Shown: one piece after another, positions 1 to 37,712 of the stretch
Position numbering within the stretch: the first letter of the stretch is position 1
Layout: every line of letters begins with the position of its first letter
Position numbers and translations under genes: made by a program
Virus record (IMG/VR): IMGVR_UViG_3300020188_000003
Coordinates: 1-37,712 of that record
Origin: a virus
Strand: one strand, 5' to 3'
Length of the DNA stretch: 37,712 nucleotides
Notes under the pieces: generated by a model
The model's input: the letters and a program-made list of their open reading frames with translations, nothing else
Databases searched by the model: none
What the model was told of the DNA's origin: nothing

Positions 1-127
1 AGCACGCCACCAGGCTTCAGACCATCAAGACTCTTGGCAAAGAAGTAATTGTGAATACTGAATTTGGATAAATCCTTACGCTTACCGTCATACAACTTCT
101 GGCTACCAAAGGGCGGATTGCCTATTG
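1..127. repeat. Terminal overlap, left copy
   Basis: These 127 bases are identical to positions 37586-37712. An exact 127-base match at both ends is the usual signature of a circular contig produced with a 127-base k-mer, so the unit genome is most likely 37,585 bp and circular or circularly permuted. Both copies lie inside the methylase domain of the giant gene, and joining them keeps its reading frame, which argues against a packaged terminal repeat. Confidence 0.93.
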
Positions 128-3100
128 CCAGGTCGAAATAACCGTCTGGCATAGTGAAGTCCTGGAATCCCATTGGTGTTTTAATGCTCGCACCAGGGTA
201 AAGGTGTAAGGCAATGCCTCCGGTAATGTGATCAAGCTCTACGCCGGTGATCTGACTCTTACCGCGCACGCCTGCCGGCATCATCCCTAAGAAATTACCA
301 GTACCAACTGAAGGCTCAAGCACGCGCCCACCAGAAAAACCCATCTCCTTCACCGCCTTCCAGATTGAAGTAACAATCTCCTGGCTTGTGTAGTGGGCAT
401 CCTGCGTGCTTCTGCGCGCTGCGTCATACTCAGCATCGGTAAGCAACTCTTTAAGCTGTGCCGCCTCTTTTTCCCATCCTTTTGATACCTTGCCAGCATC
501 ACCATAAAACGCTTGAGGAATGCCACCCCAACCAACGTAACGCGCAAGCGCTTGCTGTTCTTCTGGCGTAGCCTGGCGGCCTTCAGACTCAAGCGACTTC
601 AGGATCTTGATAGCTTCCAGATTATTCTTGAATTTGGTTTTCTGGCCACCCTCACCGATACCCATATCAGGCGTGATAGTGAACATCTTAGCCGGTCGCT
701 GCTCTGCACTTGTGGCCTTTTGAGTTGTATCACCCTCAGGTGTCGGCGCTTCTTCTGCTGCTTTTTCTTCAGCCTGAATTAGCTCTGCATCCCCTCTTGA
801 TACTGGTCGGCCTGCATTGCCCGGCTTTTCATCTGTAACGCTTCCTGGTACATCGGTGCCGCGCTGCTCGCCTTGTCCGGTTCGCTCTGCTCCGCTGGTG
901 GAAACAGGTGGTTCTCCCTGACCATCTGAAACGCCTCGTCCGGTTGATAGCCCTGGTTCTCCAGCTCGCTCACTTCCGCCAGTGTCTGCTCTGCCGCCTG
1001 CTTCAACGCCAGTTCCAGTGTCCCCTGCTTTTTCAGTGCTTGGTACTTGCTCGGCTGGAACTCCTGCCAGTGTTTCTTGGCCTGGCTGATCCAATTCTGT
1101 AGGTTCATTGGTTTGCTCCTGTGCTTGCTCTGGTTGCCAGGCTGCTTGTAAATCGGTGAGTAGCTTTTGCTTTTGCGACTCTGGTAAATCAGATCGTTCA
1201 ATGGCTCGCTGAACGGCCACGCCCTTTGATTGTCTGTTCTCTGCGCCTGGCTCACTGGCAACATTGTTAATACGCCCTTCAATATCTCTGCGCACTTGTC
1301 GCTGCCCTGGCGTCAAAGTGGCATAGTCAATTAAACCGGTTAACGCTTCTGCGTCATTCCACACTTGGCGAGCCGCATCACTATCAAGCTTGCCAGCCTG
1401 GCGTAACTTGTTAGCGTAATCTCTCGCCTTCATTAAATCGTTTCGCCAATCAGCTTTAGGCGTCAGTGCATCGTCAACTCGCTCGGCGGTATCTGCCACA
1501 GGAATATCCTCTGCGCTACGCTTTCCAGGCTCTGAGGCAATATCACTAGGCTGTTTCTGCTGTGCTGGTTCAGGTACTCGTCCAGGCTCCTGGCTTCGCT
1601 GCTGCTGATCACCTTGTCGTTCAACGCCTGCTGTATCCACTCTTGCATTTTCTTCACCACGCTTCTGGTTGTACTCCTGAATGCGGTTATCTCGAATGAA
1701 AACGCCCCCATCCTTTTTGAAAGCATAGGGGTCAATTTCTTTGGCCTGGTCCAATGTCATTTCACGATCAATGACGCCGGTTAGTTCCTTTCCTCGCTTG
1801 GTTGTGTGCTGAACTCTCTCAGCGCCTTCACCATAGACTGGCGCCGCATCAGCTGGTTGTGCTTCATCTTGAGCTTGTTCTTCAATTGGCGCTTCTTGCT
1901 TGGGCTCATCCTTAACTTGCTCCTTGGTCTGTTCTTCAACAACCACTTCCTGAGTAGGAACTTCAAGCGGTACATCAACATTCTCAGTCATTGCTGCCTG
2001 CTTTGGCGCGTAATCAACTACTGGCGCCGGTTTAACTCCGCGCTGTTCAAGCTTCTCTGCAACAAGCTCTGCCATGCTTTTTCGCTGCACTGGCTGCTGC
2101 TGTTGCTGAGCATTTGCAGGATCAAAGGCTTGTGCTGCCGCCTGCTCTGCTGGTGCAAACTGAGTTGCATCAACAATTTGGTTAAGAACCTCACCAAGTC
2201 GGCGCTCTTTGCTTTTTGATACATCAACACCGGATTTTACTACGGCCCCAGCACCACCCATCAAACCAGTAACGATGGTTGTTGGAACTACCTGTTTACG
2301 GAAAGCATCACCAACACTAAGCTCCTCATTGGTCATTCCGGCTTCGAGTTCAGCGCGATTCTGGCCGACTGCGGTAGCTGTTTCGGTCACATTCTCAGTG
2401 CCAAGTGTTGTCGCGGCGCGCTTAGTAATCTCCATGAGCTTTTGTTTGCCCATGCCTTTGAGTGGCGCAGTGAAAGCGCGTAAAAATACAAGGTTTCCAA
2501 CGGCTTCTGGTATCGCTTCCCATGCGCCATACTTTGTCGCGGCAGCGTCGAACTCAGCGTAAGCTTTATCCCATTCTTCTTGGGTAAGCTCACGCCCATA
2601 AATTTCTTTGGCTTTTTGGTTTAACCCTTCTTGGACGCGGCTCAAGAACTCATCACGGCTACCACGATAAGCAACAGTCCCGGCTGTTGTACCTGCCGCC
2701 ATACCTGTAGCGATTGGATTTTTGGTAACTAAACCAGTTAAGGCTCCAGCCGTAATAGCTGATGTCATTGTGCTAAGGCTGTATCCGAGAGACTTACCTA
2801 TTCCGTAGAAAGAGTCATAGTTGGGGTCTGGGTTTTCTGGCGGCTCCGGCTCAGTGTAATCAATAGCGCGGTCTAGCCATGTTTTATCCGCCGTTTCATC
2901 TCCACCACGAATGGAACGCATAACGGTATTGGCTGCGCCAGGTATGAGATCAGGCAACTCCTTGATCGTAATATCGGTGGCCTCTGCAAGCGCCTGTATG
3001 GTTGGCCTGCCTTCAGGGTTAAATACAGGGCGACTACCGCCAACGCTCTTGTAAACCTCATCGACTGACACCCCTTTCTCTTTGGCTATCTGGCGAGCCT

Positions 3101-3422
3101 GATACTCAATCCATGCGGCATCTTTGTTGGCTGGAATAATGCCTTTGATCTTGTCCCACAAGGTAGGCTCATAAGCCACCATCTGAGGACCTTCTGGCAC
3201 ATTGCGCGCAGCGCCGGTAAACCCATCTATTTCTGGCTCACCAAAAGAAAGCGCATTCGATACGCGCTGCATGATTCCTGGTTGTTCTGGCTCTGTCTTC
3301 GGTCCGTAAAGCTCATTGTGCCAGGCGGCCAACTCCTTGGCGCCCTGGGTATCCCCTGAAAGGTGTGCTTTCTCAAGTGCTGTTAGCAACTGGTCCTTTG
3401 TAGGTTGTTGGTTCTCTGCCAT
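1..3422 (-). CDS. Giant polyvalent virion protein, N-terminal part (N6-adenine methylase; continues across contig ends)
   Basis: First 1,140 codons of a 3,683-aa protein that continues at 37585 and stops at 29956; both pieces are in the same frame once the 127-base overlap is removed. The ATG at 3422 follows GAGG by 5 nt and lies 8 nt after the preceding stop. Residues 1-200 are helical, and about 211-253 are Gly/Ala-rich and hydrophobic, possibly membrane-interacting. Residues about 430-960 are mostly a Q/E/P/G-rich disordered linker with some helical islands. The methylase follows: a YVGWGG motif, SAM-binding LEPSVGTGNF at 1035-1044 and catalytic NPPF at 1102-1105. This is the family of phage and plasmid methylase-helicase polyvalent proteins (DarB-like). 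Such proteins are thought to be packaged and injected to protect incoming DNA from restriction. Position after the ejection genes fits that role. The linker also holds two nested genes in another frame. Confidence 0.9.
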   Translation of the reverse strand, partial: MAENQQPTKDQLLTALEKAHLSGDTQGAKELAAWHNELYGPKTEPEQPGIMQRVSNALSFGEPEIDGFTGAARNVPEGPQMVAYEPTLWDKIKGIIPANKDAAWIEYQARQIAKEKGVSVDEVYKSVGGSRPVFNPEGRPTIQALAEATDITIKELPDLIPGAANTVMRSIRGGDETADKTWLDRAIDYTEPEPPENPDPNYDSFYGIGKSLGYSLSTMTSAITAGALTGLVTKNPIATGMAAGTTAGTVAYRGSRDEFLSRVQEGLNQKAKEIYGRELTQEEWDKAYAEFDAAATKYGAWEAIPEAVGNLVFLRAFTAPLKGMGKQKLMEITKRAATTLGTENVTETATAVGQNRAELEAGMTNEELSVGDAFRKQVVPTTIVTGLMGGAGAVVKSGVDVSKSKERRLGEVLNQIVDATQFAPAEQAAAQAFDPANAQQQQQPVQRKSMAELVAEKLEQRGVKPAPVVDYAPKQAAMTENVDVPLEVPTQEVVVEEQTKEQVKDEPKQEAPIEEQAQDEAQPADAAPVYGEGAERVQHTTKRGKELTGVIDREMTLDQAKEIDPYAFKKDGGVFIRDNRIQEYNQKRGEENARVDTAGVERQGDQQQRSQEPGRVPEPAQQKQPSDIASEPGKRSAEDIPVADTAERVDDALTPKADWRNDLMKARDYANKLRQAGKLDSDAARQVWNDAEALTGLIDYATLTPGQRQVRRDIEGRINNVASEPGAENRQSKGVAVQRAIERSDLPESQKQKLLTDLQAAWQPEQAQEQTNEPTELDQPGQETLAGVPAEQVPSTEKAGDTGTGVEAGGRADTGGSERAGEPGLSTGRGVSDGQGEPPVSTSGAERTGQGEQRGTDVPGSVTDEKPGNAGRPVSRGDAELIQAEEKAAEEAPTPEGDTTQKATSAEQRPAKMFTITPDMGIGEGGQKTKFKNNLEAIKILKSLESEGRQATPEEQQALARYVGWGGIPQAFYGDAGKVSKGWEKEAAQLKELLTDAEYDAARRSTQDAHYTSQEIVTSIWKAVKEMGFSGGRVLEPSVGTGNFLGMMPAGVRGKSQITGVELDHITGGIALHLYPGASIKTPMGFQDFTMPDGYFDLAIGNPPFGSQKLYDGKRKDLSKFSIHNYFFAKSLDGLKPGGV
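779..1108 (-). CDS. Nested gene in +1 frame of giant gene, 109 aa, conserved-looking helical protein
   Basis: This gene of 109 aa is read on the same strand as the giant gene but one base out of phase. The ATG at 1108 is preceded by AGGAG with 7 nt spacing, as good as any ribosome site in this genome. Codon use is strongly gene-like (mostly CTG, CAG, GAG, GCG). The product begins MNLQNWISQAKKHWQEFQPS, is helical, and has a run ending MVRENHLFPP. I recall similar small phage proteins with a Trp-rich start and an E-x-Y/H-LFPP ending, but could not check. The giant protein in the same bases is Gly/Thr/Ser/Glu-rich and disordered, so this gene appears to be the ordered product. The longer open frame back to 1282 lacks gene-like composition, so I chose 1108. 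Function unknown. Confidence 0.8.
   Translation of the reverse strand: MNLQNWISQAKKHWQEFQPSKYQALKKQGTLELALKQAAEQTLAEVSELENQGYQPDEAFQMVRENHLFPPAEQSEPDKASSAAPMYQEALQMKSRAMQADQYQEGMQS
1463..1648 (-). CDS. Nested gene in +1 frame of giant gene, 61 aa
   Basis: A 61-aa product starting MQEWIQQALNDKVISSSEAR and ending LWQIPPSELTMH, in the same +1 frame as the nested gene at 779-1108. The ATG at 1648 follows GGTGA with 5 nt spacing, a good though not perfect ribosome site; the open frame extends upstream to 1735 without gene-like composition. Its codons favour CTG, CAG and AGC, and the product looks like a compact helical protein, while the giant protein here is a Q/E/R-rich low-complexity stretch. 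The short form and the Trp-rich C-terminal end recall small uncharacterised phage proteins, but no function can be assigned. It may be co-translated with, or independent of, the giant gene. Confidence 0.65.
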   Translation of the reverse strand: MQEWIQQALNDKVISSSEARSLDEYLNQHSRNSLVILPQSLESVAQRIFLWQIPPSELTMH

Positions 3423-26588: not shown

Positions 26589-27107
26589 ATGATTACTCAA
26601 TCAAAGCTTAAAAAGCTTCTTCACTACTATCCTAACACTGGCGAATTTACTTGGTTAGAGCGCAAAAATAACAAGCGCTTTAACTCGCTATGCGCTGGGA
26701 GTATTGCTGGCTCAAAATGCCCAAACGGATATTTAATAACATCAATAAACAACCGCTCAATACGACTTCACAGGCTTGCTTTTTTATACATGGAAGGCCG
26801 AATGCCTAGATATATTGACCACAAGAACAGAAATAAATCTGACAACTCTTGGGATAATTTAAGAGAGTGCACTGCAAGTGAAAGCACTCACAATACAGGA
26901 AAGAAACCTAACAATAAAAGCGGATTCAAAGGCGTTAGATGGAACAAGCAATGCGGAAAGTGGCAGGCTATCGTCAAGTTAAATTATAAGCAATATCATG
27001 CAGGGTTATTTGAATGCCCTAAAGAAGCTGCGATTGCTTATGACAAAAAGGCAATAGAACTTCATGGTGATTTTGCACAAACCAACAAGATGATGGGCCT
27101 ACTATGA
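26589..27107 (+). CDS. HNH homing endonuclease with AP2-type DNA-binding domain, 172 aa
   Basis: The HNH part contains RLHRLAFLYMEGRMPRYIDH, KNRNKSDNSWDNLRECTASE and HNTGKK, with the usual H-x-N-x-H spacing. The C-terminal part SGFKGVRWNKQCGKWQAIVK is a plant AP2/ERF-like DNA-binding domain, which joins HNH nucleases in many phages. It is more A/T-rich than the genes around it and separates two intact conserved genes, as expected for a recently gained free-standing homing endonuclease. GAGG precedes the ATG by 5 nt. It overlaps the next gene by 4 nt (ATGA). Confidence 0.9.
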   Translation: MITQSKLKKLLHYYPNTGEFTWLERKNNKRFNSLCAGSIAGSKCPNGYLITSINNRSIRLHRLAFLYMEGRMPRYIDHKNRNKSDNSWDNLRECTASESTHNTGKKPNNKSGFKGVRWNKQCGKWQAIVKLNYKQYHAGLFECPKEAAIAYDKKAIELHGDFAQTNKMMGLL

Positions 27108-27421
27108 AGATCGTTTCAAAGAAGTTGCGCGATAGCGCCAGGGATGAGGAATGCACGCTGCAAATTGTCGGCGTGTGCAACTTCAACTGGCAAACAACAA
27201 TACTTGCTCACCTACCTGACGAATCAAACGGTATGAGCACCAAGTCAGACGATATTAGCGCGTGTTATGCGTGCCACGCTTGCCATGATGCGATAGATAG
27301 GCGCAATAATGACGCGTCAATGACTGGTGAGGAACGCGAGTGGTACATGCGCCGGGCAATGGTTCGCACCTGGCGCCGGCTAATTGAGAAGGGAGTAGTT
27401 ACCATCAAGGGAATGAAATAA
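27104..27421 (+). CDS. YbcO-like nuclease (DUF1364), 105 aa
   Basis: The order of LRDSARDEECTLQIVGVCNF, TTILAHLPDESNGMSTKSDD and ACYACHACHDAIDRRNND with a C-terminal RAMVRTWRRLIEKG is that of DUF1364. YbcO of prophage DLP12 belongs here and is an HNH-type nuclease. The Cys-His cluster (C-x2-C-H) should bind zinc. The family lies in Nin-like regions of phages, where it may process recombination intermediates. The stop codon adjoins a terminator. Confidence 0.85.
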   Translation: MKIVSKKLRDSARDEECTLQIVGVCNFNWQTTILAHLPDESNGMSTKSDDISACYACHACHDAIDRRNNDASMTGEEREWYMRRAMVRTWRRLIEKGVVTIKGMK

Positions 27422-29938: not shown

Positions 29939-29971
29939 ATTATAACGCGCACTCCCTATTGGGAAAGCGCG
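29939..29971 (-). promoter_or_regulatory. Hairpin and TATAAT element before the tail fibre gene
   Basis: On the minus strand an imperfect stem (GCGCG/CGCGC and TCCC/GGGA around a four-base loop, 29971-29946) spans the stop of the giant gene and is followed by GTTATAATGTTTATTATTT. TATAAT at 29944-29939 is perfect, but no good -35 is present. It may be an attenuator for the giant message, a weak promoter for the fibre, or both. Confidence 0.4.
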
Positions 29972-32900
29972 CTTTCAACTTGTTCCAGGGCCTTGTTAGC
30001 CTGCTCGTAGAACTGCGCAAGTGCGTTGTTCTTCTGCTGGTACCAGTTTTCTATTCTCCTTTCCTTTTCATCCCTGGTCAGATCCGGGTTGTACTTGATT
30101 GCCGCAAGCACCGCTTCCTGGTCCTTGAATGCGCCATCAATCTGCCTAAAGGCGTTATCCATGCTGATAAGCAACTGGTTAACTTTGTCGGCTGAAAAGT
30201 CTTTCATTGGCTGCTGATCGCGTATTGCTTGTGCGGTCAGTAGGTCAAATGCAGACTTAGCGCCGGCTGCCTTTTTCTTGAGTTCAAAATAACCTTCAGT
30301 CCATTTTGTTCGATAAGGGACACGCTGCCCCTGGAATTGATAGGTTAGGTAGTCAATCGGTTCTTTAACGAATGGACGCGGCCCCCACTCTTTTTCATTC
30401 CATAGCAAGGCTTCACTGCCATCTGAGATATACGCCTCAACGTAACGCAAGTAACCTTTCATGTAATGCTCGGCCACCAATGGCGACACTCCAAGCGCTT
30501 CACCAAGATTGCGGTACAGTTGCGGCGTGCGATCAGTGAATTGATACTCGTTAGGAACGTGCATCAACTTCTCAGGGACAATAGGCGCGCCTGTGAATTT
30601 CTTATTCCTGGCCACCTCAATCATTGGCTGGAATATGCCAGGGTAATCACCAACACCAAGCGTATTAGCAAAAGTCCATGCCAGCGTCTGCGCTGCCTCT
30701 TTACCATCACGCTCCTTGATATAGTCAAGGCTTACTTCTGGTATGGTTGCGAACAAATGCCCTATATCGTATGGACGCGGAATTTTAAGAGGCTTCTCTG
30801 CACCAGGAAGGAAGATCCACCAGAATCGCGCCTTTTGGTCTGGCGTCAATGCCTGGTACCGGTCATCATCCTCATTCAGCAACCACAAGATCACTGTCAT
30901 AAGAGTTAGCACTCCACCAGCCGCCAGGAATCGCACCTTAGCATCATCAAGTTTTGCCAGGTTGCTACCCTTCATTTCACCGCGCAATTCAAATATCTCT
31001 CGCGCTGTTTTATCCAGGCCCTGAATACCGGCATTCATAAACGGAACAGTACGAAGGAACTTGGCCCACAACTCATTGCGCCCCATCTTGCTAAAGTCTG
31101 TTGCAACTTCCCTAGCCTCCCATGCAGCCTCAAGCGCATTCTTTCCAGCTTGGCGGCCACGGCGATAATCACCAAGGCGGCTACCATACTCAAATGCACT
31201 AGCAAAACGGTCATACCCCGCCAAAAACTTAGCTGCGGTATCCCACATATTGCGGCTTGGCAGATCAAGCTGTCGGCGCTTTCTGGTTTCCTCTGTTCTT
31301 GCCTCTATACGGGTACCATATCCGCCACCATGCAAACGAAACTCACGGTAAAGCTTGGTGTGGAATATGGCGTGCCCCATACCAATCAAGGTATCCCATA
31401 CTGGAATGAACTTGTTTTTACTGATCACAAAGGCGCTCAACGTATCGCGCACAGCGTTTGGACCAAGGAACTGAAGCATTGACGTTACAGTGCGGGTTTG
31501 CAGGTTCTTAACGCGGAACATGGCATTAAGCAACGCGCCAGACTTAAAGCCTCTCATACCGGTTAGCATATCCACCAGCAACGGATTGCGAACCTCAAAC
31601 CAGGTGCGCTTACCATCAATGATGGCACTATCAACGTATGTTTCTGCTGTCGTTGGCTTGTGCCCAAATGTCCAGAAGTTAAGCAGATCAGGGTTAGACT
31701 CAAGGGCCTGGGCAATATCATCAACATCAGTGATCTGCGCATCAGGATCGCCGGCCATAATCATTCCATCTTTGCTTACTGTTAAGCCAACATCAGCCAT
31801 GGCTTCAGCAATTTTTGCCGCCATCTGAGTTTGCTCAACCTTAACCAGCTTGCTATCTGGCGATAACTTAACTGCAAACAGGGAACCATCCTGGCTAGTC
31901 ATAATGTCCCGGTATAGCGTTTGCTTGGCCCTGGCAATCAATGCCGCCCTGATATTTGAGTAAAGTCCCTCAACAATGTTTTCAGCAATGTCTCGCACGT
32001 TCTGAGTGCCGCCGCTCAATCGCTTACCAATTGACGTTGTGCCAGCCTGATCACCATCTTCAAGGCGCTCTATTACCCGGTGGAATGGAACATAGTTTTT
32101 GTTGGCATCAGCAAAGGCTTGCTTCTGCTTCCCATCAATCAGGCCCATCTGCTCGTAGAAGTCCAGCATTCGCTTGTTGAACTCCTGATACTCCTTGAAT
32201 ACATCACGGAACTCAGGGTATGTAACACCAAGCTTTAACCCGGCCTCAATCTCTTGCTTTGTGAACAGCCTTTCACGGCCCTGCTTCATAAGCTCATTGG
32301 CCCGGCGCGCCTTGAAGTAATCCATAAGCAAGTCAAAACGCTTCCATCCATGTTTTGATACCGGCCAAAACACTTGGTTAAGCCCCTTGCCGTTAAACTC
32401 AAAGGTCCCATCTTCAGCAAGTGAAGGCGTGCCATCTTTCAAAATCGCTTCATGTAACGACTCTGAACCATTGATAAGCTGGAACTGCTTGAATGGGCTT
32501 AACGCCGCATCACGAACCTCACCATGAAGCGTGCGCTCAACAACCTTGGCTGCATGGATCTTATCAATTACTTCCTGTCGATAGCGCTCAAGCGGGTATG
32601 ACTGCATGTACTGGATGATCTGCTGAGACTGACTTAACTCTTTACCAGACTTGGCACGCAACTGAGCGCGAGCGCCTTGCAGGTACCACCGGTGCATTTC
32701 ATCCTGAAGCTTAACCATCTTCTTATTGAGCGTTGAATCTTCAGCAAGCACCTGCTCAAAACGCTGGGTAAACAATGGCGCCGCCGCTTTTGCCTCTGCA
32801 TAGTTTGTGAGCCATAGACGCACAAATTCAGCAAAGCCTTCTTTGTACTTCAGATTCTTCTGGCTTGTATAGCTCAGGCCGGCAACCTCATCACGATACT

Positions 32901-35900
32901 TGGTATCCTTGTATGCCCTGGTAAATCGCTTGTTGTAGCGGTAGTGCATATCAAGGTAGTGAGCCATTTCATGGGCCATAACCTCAACATCATCATAATT
33001 AGCAACACGAACTTCACTGTTATTCTTACGGTAGAAGCCAAGCTTTGACTTGCCTTTCACTTTGCCTTGATAAAGCCTTGGCCCTATAACATCCTCGACC
33101 ATAACGCGCACACCCTCACGGCGCGTTGGCTGTTCCTCTGGCTTTAACTTCACCACTCTATCACCAATGGAAAACTCATCACCTTCAGGGCGCTTAGGTA
33201 CGCCAGCCTGGCGATATGTTGGGCGCCAGTTAGGCATAGGCACATCAGCTCCAGCGTTGTACATCATTGCACTGGTGCCATCCTGCTCTATTTCTTCCTG
33301 ATCCCTGTTTTTAGGTTTCAACTCTGCAATAACCAAGGCATGACGCGCCTTAACCTTTGCAAGCTCATCAGCTTGCGACCAATCAGCAATCTGACCTTCA
33401 AGATCTGGAATGTCACGCTCAGCCTGTTTGATAAGCTCAGCCTCATTCTTGGCATCAACACTGATACGCCTAACAGTATTGGTAATGCGCATAGCCAAGC
33501 CAGTAGGATCAGCTTCAGCAATATCTGGAATATCAACCTGGTATTCCTGCTCGCCCTCTATGGTGATCACGAACTCAGCACCACTGATATTATCCAGGCG
33601 CAACTTAAAGCCAGCATATTCACCGATAGGCTTTGTCTCTTGCCCGGCATCAGCCATCTTATTGGCCGCCGCAAGCAATGCCTGGCCAGCCTCTTTGTGC
33701 TTATCGTACTTGCCGCTATTGATTGTGATAGAGAAGTCTTTTGGCGCTTTCTCTGCCTTTTTAGCATCACGCGTAAACTTCAGCATTCTATCCTTACCGG
33801 TTTCAATGCGTAGCTTCAGGCGGCGCACCTGATCTCGAATGCGGAATTGCTCGCGGTCATGCTCATCTTCAAGCTGCTCAAGCTTTCTGATCTTCTGGCG
33901 CAAGTCCATTTCCTCAAGGATAAGCGGGTTGCCACTTGAGGCCGCTTTCATTTCAGCTGCATTACTTGCCTCGCCGCCAACATCCTCAATCTCACGCGTC
34001 TTGGTATTACCCTTGCGCACCTGCTCAATGAATCGCGCCTTAGTTTCAATGGTCTGCCACATACGGCTATCAAGCGTCTGCTTGGTTGCGTAGCGGTTAA
34101 TCTCAACCTCAAATCCATCAGGGTCACGCTCATAAAGCTTGTTGCCCTGGCGAATGATACGACCTTCACGCTGTTCAAGGTCAGAAGGCCGCCATGGTGC
34201 ATCCATGTGGTGTAGCGCAACAAGGCGCTCCTGCACGTTCATGCCGGCGCCCATCTTGGCGGTAGAACCAAACAACACACGAATGCGACCACTACGAACC
34301 TTACCAAACAGTTCTTCTTTCTGAAGCTCCGTATTAGCATCGTGAATAAATGCTATCTCCTGCTCAGGAATACCCTTATTGATAAGCTTCTGGCGCAAGT
34401 CATCGTAAACACTGAAATCACCATCAAGCGCCGACAACTCATCAGGACTCATCTTGTCGAGTTCATCCTGGGCGCGCTCATCACCGTTATCTGCTTTTTC
34501 AATCAGATCACGGATTCTCGCCGCCTCTTTTGCCTTGGCGCCTTTAGGTGTGCTCAAGTCAATGAATACCAACTGAGCGCCTTTGTCTGCACTCCATTGG
34601 TCATAGATACGCTTAATGTTGTCTGCTGCCTGATTTACTTTGCTACCTTCATAGTCGCCGTACATGGCAGGGTCTATCATGCGCATATCAAGCGCCGCCT
34701 TCCTGGCGTCACTCATTATCTTCAGCATGTTATCCGCGCCCTTTTCAGGCTTCTTAGGCAAGTGCTCAGCACGCCAAACAAGACTTCCTTCAGGGTATGA
34801 CTCGCGGCCATTCTCATCGGTGATAGGCTCGCCAATATAAGCGGCCTGGTCATCACTTCGAGTAACAACAACATTCTGAGGCTTGCCGCCTTTAACCTTT
34901 GGCACCGGTAGGCGCTTGCCCTGGGCTGCCAGTTGGCGGTTAATGTCATCACGGTTGATAACATCACCAAACGATAGATAGCGCTGCATAAGCTCAGGGA
35001 TGTTCACAAATTTACTGAAGCGACTGTTTAGCTTGTAGGTGCCTGAAGGCGACAACTCCCAATCAGTAACAACCTCACCATACATGCGCGCCCATGCGTC
35101 AAAGTGCGCAATACCCTGGTCCTGCAATGCCTGGTAATCCAGGTAGCGCTGCATGGTGTACATTTCGGCCATGGTATTGCTGATCGGCGTGCCGGTGGCA
35201 AATACCACGTTATTCCCGCCAGTTTTTTCCAGGACAAACTGAGTTTTCATAAACAGGTCTGCCGCCTTCTGACTGCCTTGTGGATTACCAAGGCCGGCAA
35301 CGCGGGTCATGCTGGTGGCAAAGCCAAGGTTTTTAAACTCATGCGCTTCATCAAGGAATAGCGCATCAACACCAAGCTCACCAAAGGTTAAGTTGTCATC
35401 CTTGTTCTCAGCATCAAATAGTTTCTTCAGCTTTTCCTGAAGGCGCTCTTTCTGCTTCTCAATCTGCTTAATGCTGCGTGACTTCTGCCCGTCCTGGGCC
35501 CGGATATTCTGAATAGCCTCGTCAATGTCACGGATCTGCTGGTTGATAAAGCGCTCTTGGAACTCCTTATCCATTTCAACCTTACCAAACGATGAGTGCG
35601 CAACAATAACAGCATCCCAATCACCGGTAGCAATGCGAGCAAATAAGCGCTTACGGTTGCCTTTCTCAAAGTCCTTCTTGGTAGCTGCCAGCACATTTGC
35701 GCCAGGGTAAAGCTTGGTGAAGTCCTCCGCCCATTGCCCGACCAAGTGATTAGGAACAACAAACATCGGCTTCTTAGCTCGGCCCATGCGGCGCATTTCC
35801 ATAGCGCCAGCAACCATAGTGAAAGTCTTACCAGCACCAACAACGTGATCAAGCAAGGTTGTGCCAGACTGAACGATACGCCAAACAGCGTTAGCCTGGT

Positions 35901-37712
35901 GTGGACGCAACTTGATAATGTCGTCACTGACCTTTCCAGGGAAAGTAAGGTGCGAACCATCAAACTCACGCAAGCGATCGGTGTTGAAGGTATCGTTATA
36001 AATCCTGGTCAACCGACCACGCCGCGCATCATCCTGCCAAACCCAACGGCGAAACTCTGCCTTTAAACGCTCAACCTTTTCATTGGCCGCATTGGTGGCC
36101 GCCTCATTCACGCGTGTTGTGTTTTCGTCAATACGGTCACGCACAACAATCTGCTTTTGGTTTGCAGCTGCTGCAACAATGTCAGTAACCTGAACTCGGT
36201 CAGTACCCCAACGCGAACGCGCCGCCTCAGTTGGTACGCCATCAATAGACCATTTTGCATTGGTAGGGATATAAACAGCCTTGCCGCTTTCATTACCAAG
36301 CACATGATCAACAAACGACTTCATATCTTCACGCGGCAACCAGTGAGCACCAGGCTTAACGTCAATATCAACGGCCTCAATATCTTCAGGCTGAACCGAC
36401 TCAAGGGCCTGGACGTTGCGCTTATACTTGCTGTCTGCCTTGGCAAGCTGCTTTGCCTGGGCAAGCTTCTGCTTAACATTACCGCTAAGGTATTGATCAC
36501 GCGTTTCAAATCGGCCAGGCTCAACTTCAAACACAAGATCACCAAGCTCATTGGCAATGTATCCTGGCGTTTTGTTGTAAAGCTTAGCCATGTAATCCAT
36601 ATCAATGACGCCATACTCAGACAAGCTTGCTGCCATGGCATCCTTGGCCGTTGTCGCTTTGGTGGGCGCCTTATATGGTGACTGAGTGCGCTTGTAGAAT
36701 ATCGCCGCCTTTTGGGCGCTTGGCTTGCGTGATTGCTCGCCGGTTTTCTTCGCCATTGCTGGCGTAATTCCTTTATCGAATGATTCTTCAAGGGCTGCAA
36801 TTTGCGGCCAGGTAGGATCATCACGGAACAACCGCTTATTGGCATCTGAGTTTATTGGCCCATGAGACTTAACAAACGCGTCATATTCACGATTAAGACG
36901 CGTGCGCAACGCGTCAAGTGCCGCATCTTTCACGCCTTCAGTAAGCTGCGCCTTTCTCAAATCGGTGAATACATCACGGACCTTTATCATTCCCTCAACG
37001 CGCTGGCGCGCTTTATCGCTTGCAAACTCAACTGGCTCAGCCTGGACGCTACCAAGCTCATTATCCTGGCGCACCATAACCTGGCCGCCATCCATGAACA
37101 TACTTCCAACCTTGACGTTATCAACACTGGTGGATAGCTTAACTTCCTCTTTTGCTGGTTCTGCCTTTGACTCTGCCATAATACCTTTTGGTAGCTTAGC
37201 CAAAGCCTCACGCAACAACGCGCCGGTGTCCTGACCTTCACGCGCTACAAGCGCCGGGTCATTTGGGCCATACATAGAACCGTATGCACCCCACTCACCA
37301 AGCATCATGTCGGGATTTTTTACAAAGTATTCATTCAGTGGTGTTTCAATGCCTTTGGCGTCTTTCACTGTTTCAGTGCGCTTCCATGAAGGTCCTTTTC
37401 TTGGTGTGCCTTCTTCGCGCTTTTGAAGGAATACAATATCAGTTGTTACTTCTGTCCCGGCGTTCTTCAGGAAGGCGTTGTTAGGCAAGCGAACAGCGCC
37501 AAGGAAGTCTGCACGATTAGCCATGTACTCACGCGCTGCCTGATTGCTCTGACCATCCATAAGACGGTTAGATACGACCATTGCCAGCACGCCACCAGGC
37601 TTCAGACCATCAAGACTCTTGGCAAAGAAGTAATTGTGAATACTGAATTTGGATAAATCCTTACGCTTACCGTCATACAACTTCTGGCTACCAAAGGGCG
37701 GATTGCCTATTG
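29956..37712 (-). CDS. Giant polyvalent virion protein, C-terminal part (methylase end, SNF2 helicase, metalloprotease-like, LPD38)
   Basis: Continues from position 1. Numbering by the full 3,683-aa protein: end of the methylase (NPPF at 1102, repeated in the overlap), a YLSGNVKQKLAQAKQ segment typical of such methylase-helicases near 1500, Walker A GAGKT at 1724-1728, DEAH at 1886-1889, and helicase motif VI QREGRIIRQGN near 2278. HEMAH at 2679-2683 with a downstream EGFAEF near 2721 forms a metalloprotease-like domain. The end holds a PFMNAGIQGLDKTAREIF segment near 3320, as in LPD38, and a hydrophobic stretch (LTLMTVILWLL) near 3365. Such proteins guard injected DNA by methylation and translocation. 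It may also be cleaved into parts. Only one start (3422) is supported. Confidence 0.92.
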   Translation of the reverse strand, partial: IGNPPFGSQKLYDGKRKDLSKFSIHNYFFAKSLDGLKPGGVLAMVVSNRLMDGQSNQAAREYMANRADFLGAVRLPNNAFLKNAGTEVTTDIVFLQKREEGTPRKGPSWKRTETVKDAKGIETPLNEYFVKNPDMMLGEWGAYGSMYGPNDPALVAREGQDTGALLREALAKLPKGIMAESKAEPAKEEVKLSTSVDNVKVGSMFMDGGQVMVRQDNELGSVQAEPVEFASDKARQRVEGMIKVRDVFTDLRKAQLTEGVKDAALDALRTRLNREYDAFVKSHGPINSDANKRLFRDDPTWPQIAALEESFDKGITPAMAKKTGEQSRKPSAQKAAIFYKRTQSPYKAPTKATTAKDAMAASLSEYGVIDMDYMAKLYNKTPGYIANELGDLVFEVEPGRFETRDQYLSGNVKQKLAQAKQLAKADSKYKRNVQALESVQPEDIEAVDIDVKPGAHWLPREDMKSFVDHVLGNESGKAVYIPTNAKWSIDGVPTEAARSRWGTDRVQVTDIVAAAANQKQIVVRDRIDENTTRVNEAATNAANEKVERLKAEFRRWVWQDDARRGRLTRIYNDTFNTDRLREFDGSHLTFPGKVSDDIIKLRPHQANAVWRIVQSGTTLLDHVVGAGKTFTMVAGAMEMRRMGRAKKPMFVVPNHLVGQWAEDFTKLYPGANVLAATKKDFEKGNRKRLFARIATGDWDAVIVAHSSFGKVEMDKEFQERFINQQIRDIDEAIQNIRAQDGQKSRSIKQIEKQKERLQEKLKKLFDAENKDDNLTFGELGVDALFLDEAHEFKNLGFATSMTRVAGLGNPQGSQKAADLFMKTQFVLEKTGGNNVVFATGTPISNTMAEMYTMQRYLDYQALQDQGIAHFDAWARMYGEVVTDWELSPSGTYKLNSRFSKFVNIPELMQRYLSFGDVINRDDINRQLAAQGKRLPVPKVKGGKPQNVVVTRSDDQAAYIGEPITDENGRESYPEGSLVWRAEHLPKKPEKGADNMLKIMSDARKAALDMRMIDPAMYGDYEGSKVNQAADNIKRIYDQWSADKGAQLVFIDLSTPKGAKAKEAARIRDLIEKADNGDERAQDELDKMSPDELSALDGDFSVYDDLRQKLINKGIPEQEIAFIHDANTELQKEELFGKVRSGRIRVLFGSTAKMGAGMNVQERLVALHHMDAPWRPSDLEQREGRIIRQGNKLYERDPDGFEVEINRYATKQTLDSRMWQTIETKARFIEQVRKGNTKTREIEDVGGEASNAAEMKAASSGNPLILEEMDLRQKIRKLEQLEDEHDREQFRIRDQVRRLKLRIETGKDRMLKFTRDAKKAEKAPKDFSITINSGKYDKHKEAGQALLAAANKMADAGQETKPIGEYAGFKLRLDNISGAEFVITIEGEQEYQVDIPDIAEADPTGLAMRITNTVRRISVDAKNEAELIKQAERDIPDLEGQIADWSQADELAKVKARHALVIAELKPKNRDQEEIEQDGTSAMMYNAGADVPMPNWRPTYRQAGVPKRPEGDEFSIGDRVVKLKPEEQPTRREGVRVMVEDVIGPRLYQGKVKGKSKLGFYRKNNSEVRVANYDDVEVMAHEMAHYLDMHYRYNKRFTRAYKDTKYRDEVAGLSYTSQKNLKYKEGFAEFVRLWLTNYAEAKAAAPLFTQRFEQVLAEDSTLNKKMVKLQDEMHRWYLQGARAQLRAKSGKELSQSQQIIQYMQSYPLERYRQEVIDKIHAAKVVERTLHGEVRDAALSPFKQFQLINGSESLHEAILKDGTPSLAEDGTFEFNGKGLNQVFWPVSKHGWKRFDLLMDYFKARRANELMKQGRERLFTKQEIEAGLKLGVTYPEFRDVFKEYQEFNKRMLDFYEQMGLIDGKQKQAFADANKNYVPFHRVIERLEDGDQAGTTSIGKRLSGGTQNVRDIAENIVEGLYSNIRAALIARAKQTLYRDIMTSQDGSLFAVKLSPDSKLVKVEQTQMAAKIAEAMADVGLTVSKDGMIMAGDPDAQITDVDDIAQALESNPDLLNFWTFGHKPTTAETYVDSAIIDGKRTWFEVRNPLLVDMLTGMRGFKSGALLNAMFRVKNLQTRTVTSMLQFLGPNAVRDTLSAFVISKNKFIPVWDTLIGMGHAIFHTKLYREFRLHGGGYGTRIEARTEETRKRRQLDLPSRNMWDTAAKFLAGYDRFASAFEYGSRLGDYRRGRQAGKNALEAAWEAREVATDFSKMGRNELWAKFLRTVPFMNAGIQGLDKTAREIFELRGEMKGSNLAKLDDAKVRFLAAGGVLTLMTVILWLLNEDDDRYQALTPDQKARFWWIFLPGAEKPLKIPRPYDIGHLFATIPEVSLDYIKERDGKEAAQTLAWTFANTLGVGDYPGIFQPMIEVARNKKFTGAPIVPEKLMHVPNEYQFTDRTPQLYRNLGEALGVSPLVAEHYMKGYLRYVEAYISDGSEALLWNEKEWGPRPFVKEPIDYLTYQFQGQRVPYRTKWTEGYFELKKKAAGAKSAFDLLTAQAIRDQQPMKDFSADKVNQLLISMDNAFRQIDGAFKDQEAVLAAIKYNPDLTRDEKERRIENWYQQKNNALAQFYEQANKALEQVESALSQ
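37586..37712. repeat. Terminal overlap, right copy
   Basis: Identical to positions 1-127. When this copy is removed the reading frame of the giant gene runs unbroken from 3422 through position 1 to 29956 (11,052 nt, divisible by three), which supports a closed circle rather than a terminal repeat. Confidence 0.93.

Follow-up and report, generated by a model that had tools for sequence, protein, structure and literature searches.

Two small genes predicted in the +1 frame of the linker of a DarB-like giant protein of a phage

We analyzed a phage contig of 37,712 nucleotides (IMG/VR record IMGVR_UViG_3300020188_000003, positions 1 to 37,712; the whole stretch is called the window below), considering the gene of its giant protein, which by sequence belongs to the DarB-like polyvalent giants: methylase, SNF2-type helicase and polyvalent-associated domain in one protein. 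A low-complexity linker occupies giant residues ~430-960, with the methylase module beginning near residue 900-920. Two open reading frames (ORFs) in the +1 frame of this linker, ORF-A and ORF-B, have the features of real protein-coding genes; for ORF-A coding is near certain. We consider it fairly probable that the whole picture holds jointly, i.e. that both are real nested genes translated by internal initiation, ORF-A being the older frame and a partner of the methylase-helicase, and ORF-B a younger accessory.

ORF-A (109 aa, ATG start, giant residues 772-880, window positions 779..1108, minus strand) was characterized by its homologues, by the reversal of codon phase and by fourfold degenerate sites. 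Read from 1108 to 779, it starts MNLQNWISQAKKHWQEFQPSKY; a Shine-Dalgarno sequence, AGGAG, is situated 7 nt ahead of the ATG (1116..1120, minus strand; AGGAGCAAACCAATG). Starts of nested homologues were picked by alignment position, not by Shine-Dalgarno sequence; still, a Shine-Dalgarno match of at least 4 nt was present at all 66 of 66 distinct nested ORF-A starts, versus 24% in the background made of other +1-frame ATG/GTG codons of the same giants. The nested ORF-A thus appears to have a start signal of its own.

Selection on the nested frame could be seen in the distribution of nucleotide changes. In the clade of phages similar to Vibrio phage VvAW1, 23, 11 and 4 changes fell on giant codon positions 1, 2 and 3 in the ORF-A core, versus 15, 3 and 106 downstream; as giant codon position 1 is the wobble position of ORF-A, this shift indicates that selection acts on the ORF-A frame. 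The same phase shift was observed in ten further clades (rhizobial, Ochrobactrum, Klebsiella, Erwinia, Pseudomonas, Variovorax and others), 11 clades in total. Among giant-frame fourfold sites within ORF-A only 1 of 44 was variable, versus 63 of 109 in the methylase region (P = 7e-12) and 31 of 60 in the neighbouring linker.

ORF-B (61 aa, ATG start, giant residues 592-652, positions 1463..1648, minus strand), supported by conservation and by fourfold sites, starts MQEWIQQALNDKVISSSEA when read from 1648 to 1463. Its ribosome-binding site is weak in the window, GGTG (1655..1658, minus strand); the site is GGAG in four of six close relatives, and GGAGG-type sites are present ahead of ORF-B in Vibrio phage vB_ValP_FGH and in contig L114. 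ORF-B is kept in VvAW1-like phages, and the giants of vB_ValP_FGH and of two contigs contain homologues with 33-41% identity, likewise in the +1 frame. Two of its 25 giant-frame fourfold sites were variable (P = 4e-6 against the same methylase region). The AlphaFold2 model of ORF-B has three helices (pLDDT 82); a structure search with it gave no match above Z 3.7 and no convincing relative. On these data ORF-B, too, is best described as a real protein-coding gene nested in the +1 frame of the giant. Both nested frames are under purifying selection beyond the constraint of the giant frame. A preliminary description of this DNA had proposed two extra proteins in another frame of the linker, with Shine-Dalgarno sites ahead of them; the first proposal is sustained by fourfold sites, homologues and the phase shift in ORF-A, the second by the 66 starts of ORF-A and, for ORF-B, by the weak GGTG.

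One could suppose instead that the open +1 stretches are a by-product of composition, with nothing encoded in them. Stop codons in the +1 frame require NTA or NTG codons, and few such stops arise in a linker with little Leu, Val, Ile and Met; since linkers of this kind are sparing with NTA and NTG codons, long +1 openness is common in null linkers, where the mean longest +1 stretch was 109-112 codons. The +1 frame of the linker (residues 430-960) contains open stretches of 177, 97, 68 and 59 codons. The preliminary description had also suggested that equal frequency of open frames in codon-shuffled linkers would refute the idea of nested genes. When this test was run, the longest +1 stretch of at least 177 codons was borderline (P = 0.042 with codon-shuffled linkers, 0.062 with synonymously re-drawn ones), while the presence of an ATG-started ORF of at least 109 codons in the +1 frame was not significant (P = 0.22 and 0.14, respectively). 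As null linkers often contain long +1 stretches, the test came close to discarding ORF-A and ORF-B; on a single genome it has too little power and it nearly dismissed two genuine genes. Open length alone is weak evidence for ORF-A and ORF-B, and we left it out of the coding argument, which the comparisons among genomes decide.

The +1 frame of the giant is also open at residues 407-476, 481-547 and 952-1032; these three stretches had 18 of 33, 8 of 25 and 16 of 37 fourfold sites variable, respectively, with no clear coding signal in any of them by the fourfold-site test; the second stretch was borderline (P = 0.03 against the methylase region, 0.15 against the linker). These stretches behave as non-coding sequence and make a useful internal control; they also speak for an effect of composition. 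At ORF-A and ORF-B, however, such an effect is contradicted by suppressed synonymous change, by the phase shift of ORF-A, by Shine-Dalgarno sites and by remote homologues that share the frame. By this sequence evidence composition is refuted as an explanation of the two ORFs, for which we find it scarcely credible, and it stands for the other open stretches.

Homologues of ORF-A were found at 87 loci, 64 in viral and 23 in bacterial contigs; named phages with a homologue infect Erwinia, Klebsiella, Sinorhizobium, Agrobacterium, Ochrobactrum, Pseudomonas and Microcystis. At 79 of the 87 loci the homologue was wholly enclosed by a second open frame, to which it stood at +1 as in the window; that frame nearly always exceeded 900 codons. 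Many of these loci are related, so that the counts do not represent independent events, though eleven clades agree. Of the eight loci not counted as nested, two were cut by contig ends and one, in Corticibacter (L089), had ORF-A beside giant remnants. Apparently free-standing relatives, also among the eight, were seen in Marinimicrobia (L092, L094), Pseudidiomarina (L103, L104) and Variovorax (L105). In Pseudidiomarina sediminum (L103:2974-3759) a single protein of 262 aa combines the ORF-A domain with a hydrophobic part at the C-terminus that probably spans the membrane; the P. piscicola copy (L104) is interrupted by a mid-gene stop. The search of plasmids gave no match to ORF-A, and none of the 397 other genomes of the phylum surveyed contained it.

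Bcep22-like giants also have a +1 ORF directly ahead of the methylase, preceded by AAGGAGG or AAGGAGA. In the more remote giants of BcepMigl, JC1, vB_PalP_Y7 and vB_PaeM_USP_25 the +1 ORF at the start of the methylase region has a Shine-Dalgarno site and codes for 97-117 aa; profile matches to ORF-A are weak or none. The phase count for BcepMigl versus JC1, 20/13/16 in the +1 ORF and 16/13/51 downstream, shows a weaker shift. The expectation that the arrangement may recur in Bcep22-like and other polyvalent giants was thus confirmed by the 79 nested loci and by these ORFs. Judged from sequence, phages with many unrelated bacterial hosts have retained ORF-A at an unchanged nested site, although annotations do not include it. 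The linker from ORF-B to ORF-A is longer in locus L009 (6001-9729), where ORF-A starts at giant residue ~865, versus ~730-770 in others; the space between the nested genes seems free to change.

If ORF-A were reached by a ribosomal frameshift, the product would be a truncated giant with an ORF-A tail. Such an arrangement is annotated in Sinorhizobium phage PBC5 (L012, L049), where the upstream portion of the giant shares the ORF-A frame, with a shift ~45 nt before the start, and is joined with ORF-A as ‘orf33’; however, the old record may contain a sequencing error here. The ‘endolysin’ family PHROG 938 carries ORF-A as its C-terminus, and ORF-A of the window matches there with E-value 8e-23. 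On the other hand, the conserved start with its Shine-Dalgarno site in all 66 distinct nested cases and the existence of free-standing copies do not fit a frameshift product, and several genomes have the +1 frame closed 0-6 codons before the ORF-A start, which leaves little room for a frameshift. We regard the frameshift as very improbable. Most likely, ORF-A and ORF-B are translated from the mRNA of the giant by internal initiation at the Shine-Dalgarno sites, which is strongly supported for ORF-A and less so for ORF-B.

What kind of protein is ORF-A? Its AlphaFold2 model has four confident helices within residues 3-67 (pLDDT ~90) and a weak tail. ORF-A of the window has no match to a Pfam family at E-values up to 1 and is below the gathering cut-off of TnpV (PF14198), 27 bits, so it was not filed as TnpV. 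However, a Fibrobacter contig contains a nested homologue that exceeds this cut-off, with 35.5 bits against TnpV, and other family members score 12-35 bits. Comparison of ORF-A and TnpV profiles without common members by hhalign gave E-value 6.4e-5 and probability 64% over 51 columns of the N-terminal half; an initial probability of 95.6% was discarded, as one member was common to both profiles. A profile match of ORF-A to a designed helical repeat was judged to be a composition effect. We characterize ORF-A as a predicted protein of four helices, probably a remote relative of TnpV.

In six records canonical TnpV, too, is a +1 gene nested inside giants: three contigs of gut phages or elements (L128, L129, L164), a plasmid of Subdoligranulum (L165), a viral contig (L145) and a Listeria-associated record (L137). 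In every pair among the first five, identity was higher in the TnpV frame than in the host frame. Many other TnpV genes are free-standing, some of them following recombinase genes. For the TnpV encoded by Tn4451, a part in excision has been postulated from its likeness to lambda Xis (PMC3158075). Thus, ORF-A might be an Xis-like recombination factor, with its place in the giant incidental; the free-standing TnpV that adjoins and follows a recombinase gene on a Campylobacter plasmid would agree with this. However, the absence of ORF-A from the 397 other genomes indicates that ORF-A moves together with giants, not with recombinases, and since no resolvase-type or tyrosine recombinase was detectable in the complete phage contig, an excision role is less likely here. 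All in all, a recombination role appears quite improbable.

Among known structures, 2APL (PG0816, DUF1896) came closest in fold to the ORF-A model, with VIA-align Z 7.1 and rmsd 2.3 over 63 residues (the next row had 4.4); the Foldseek E-value of this match was 3.7. We take this structure to be a member of DUF1896 (PF08989). In six of six Bacteroidota loci (L156-L161) a DUF1896 gene comes immediately before the gene of a methylase-helicase that is homologous to the giant. As DUF1896 was reached solely via the fold match, this common position before methylase-helicase provides independent support, and the Bacteroidota gene pair looks like an unfused version of the ORF-A/giant arrangement. The frame relation of the pair differs from that of the nested cases, so simple read-through would be insufficient to convert one into the other. 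TnpV was not found above the cut-off in Bacteroidota genomes. As a separate observation, the position of DUF1896 at the six loci suggests a functional link of this uncharacterized family to the methylase-helicase.

The relative age of the overlapping frames was assessed by the fit of codon usage in the overlap to that of the giant in 64 distinct genomes. The fit was on average 0.68 in the ORF-A frame versus 0.45 in the giant frame, and better in the ORF-A frame in 59 of 64 genomes; G+C content at third codon positions in the overlap was high in the ORF-A frame and low in the giant frame. In the window genome itself the advantage was not visible (0.68 versus 0.72). The better codon fit, together with the free-standing relatives, suggests that ORF-A is probably the older frame, with the linker of the giant written over it. 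For ORF-B the fit was 0.57-0.64 versus 0.72-0.81 in the host frame, and ORF-B looks like a younger, lineage-specific gene of two Vibrio-phage-type lineages only. The notion of the linker as a gene nursery, put forward in the preliminary description, suits ORF-B and probably fails for ORF-A, given its codon usage and its free-standing relatives.

The preferred scenario is then as follows. Flanking modules would have fused into one reading frame, with the linker overprinted on the older ORF-A. ORF-A would be made beside the growing methylase-helicase part of the giant and could be its dedicated small partner, which binds the module, keeps it soluble or inactive, or aids its loading into the capsid; the constant linkage to methylase-helicase giants makes a partner role probable. 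ORF-B may serve this giant as a further accessory. One could speculate further that methylase-helicase giants, in Proteobacteria phages and in Clostridia-type elements, have a small TnpV-like protein as an obligate partner of ancient origin; since the gene of this protein lay between the modules that fused, the disordered linkers would be its out-of-frame shadow, shaped by the gene. This extension we offer tentatively, as it falls a little short of being probable.

Several observations weigh against this scenario. No ORF-A was detectable in the DarB-like giants of Pseudomonas phage 8P, Bordetella phage PHB04 and P1, so that the partner would not be universally needed. Homology of ORF-A and TnpV is limited to the N-terminal half, and in some Clostridia-type elements TnpV is far upstream of the methylase (~1,200 codons in L129). 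A Z of 7.1 for the DUF1896 match is modest for a helical bundle, and profile comparisons detect no sequence relationship of DUF1896 and ORF-A (hhalign probability 0.2%; best hmmsearch E-value 0.46), so that DUF1896 is not supported as a sequence homologue. A different role could also be considered, that of an independent early protein for host takeover or anti-defence, nested merely to save space. Phages often pack small effectors, and ORF-A is inside a giant assigned to counter-defence; however, among the phages examined ORF-A is not scattered elsewhere and stays nested ahead of the methylase module, which makes this alternative unlikely, though it has more to recommend it than a recombination role.

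The giant gene is split in the window. The contig has identical 127-base ends (window 1-127 = 37586-37712), which indicates that it is circular and that the gene, cut at an arbitrary point, wraps round the ends. The giant of 3,683 aa is encoded on the minus strand by 3422→1 joined to 37585→29956, as follows from the circular overlap and the joined translation. Its 5′ part (1..3422, minus strand; ATG at 3422) was assigned by these two observations together with PHROG and Pfam matches, and its 3′ part (29956..37585, minus strand), with the rest of the methylase, the SNF2-type helicase and LPD38, by the joined translation and Pfam. The match to PHROG 10089 (DarB-like) has E-value 3.8e-119, and the Pfam domains are Eco57I, ResIII, SNF2, Helicase_C and LPD38. 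The nearest named relative is Vibrio phage VvAW1, with ~90% DNA identity over 70% of the first 12 kb. Virion packaging and protection of DNA from restriction have been reported for relatives of the giant (PMC9144972, PMC9024508); the JC1 homologue was found in virions (PMC9144972). Elsewhere in the window, an HNH endonuclease gene with a weak AP2-like domain (26589-27107, plus strand) adjoins a putative YbcO-like nuclease gene (27104-27421, plus strand).

Studies of giant polyvalent proteins treat each of them as one polypeptide; should a conserved partner indeed lie in another frame, published annotations, knock-outs and truncations may have affected two or three proteins together. The locus also offers a test case for the origin of overlapping genes in DNA phages, one in which the older frame is identifiable, and it demonstrates that real nested genes can escape a test based only on open-frame statistics. 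TnpV, a family with a merely postulated role, gains a second, very different setting.

With regard to known systems, ORF-A is like TnpV in its small size and common N-terminal pattern and unlike it in having no recognizable TnpV C-terminus, while the DUF1896 gene, unlike ORF-A, is separate and non-nested. The host gene of ORF-A belongs with the DarB-like giants (P1 DarB and the Bcep22 gp75 group) by its methylase, helicase and LPD38; the openly licensed literature examined mentions no nested gene in these giants, and an earlier report may exist elsewhere. P1 Ulx was reported to aid DarB localization (PMC9024508), which makes a small partner for a DarB plausible; Ulx, however, is a separate gene downstream, by profile unrelated to ORF-A, and a search for ORF-A as its counterpart or within P1 DarB gave no match. 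The nearest likeness in layout is to the embedded Rz/Rz1 spanins, where two proteins are also encoded by one stretch in different frames of the same strand. Both Rz and Rz1 are short, lysis-related genes, whereas here a conserved gene is predicted deep inside one of the largest phage genes.

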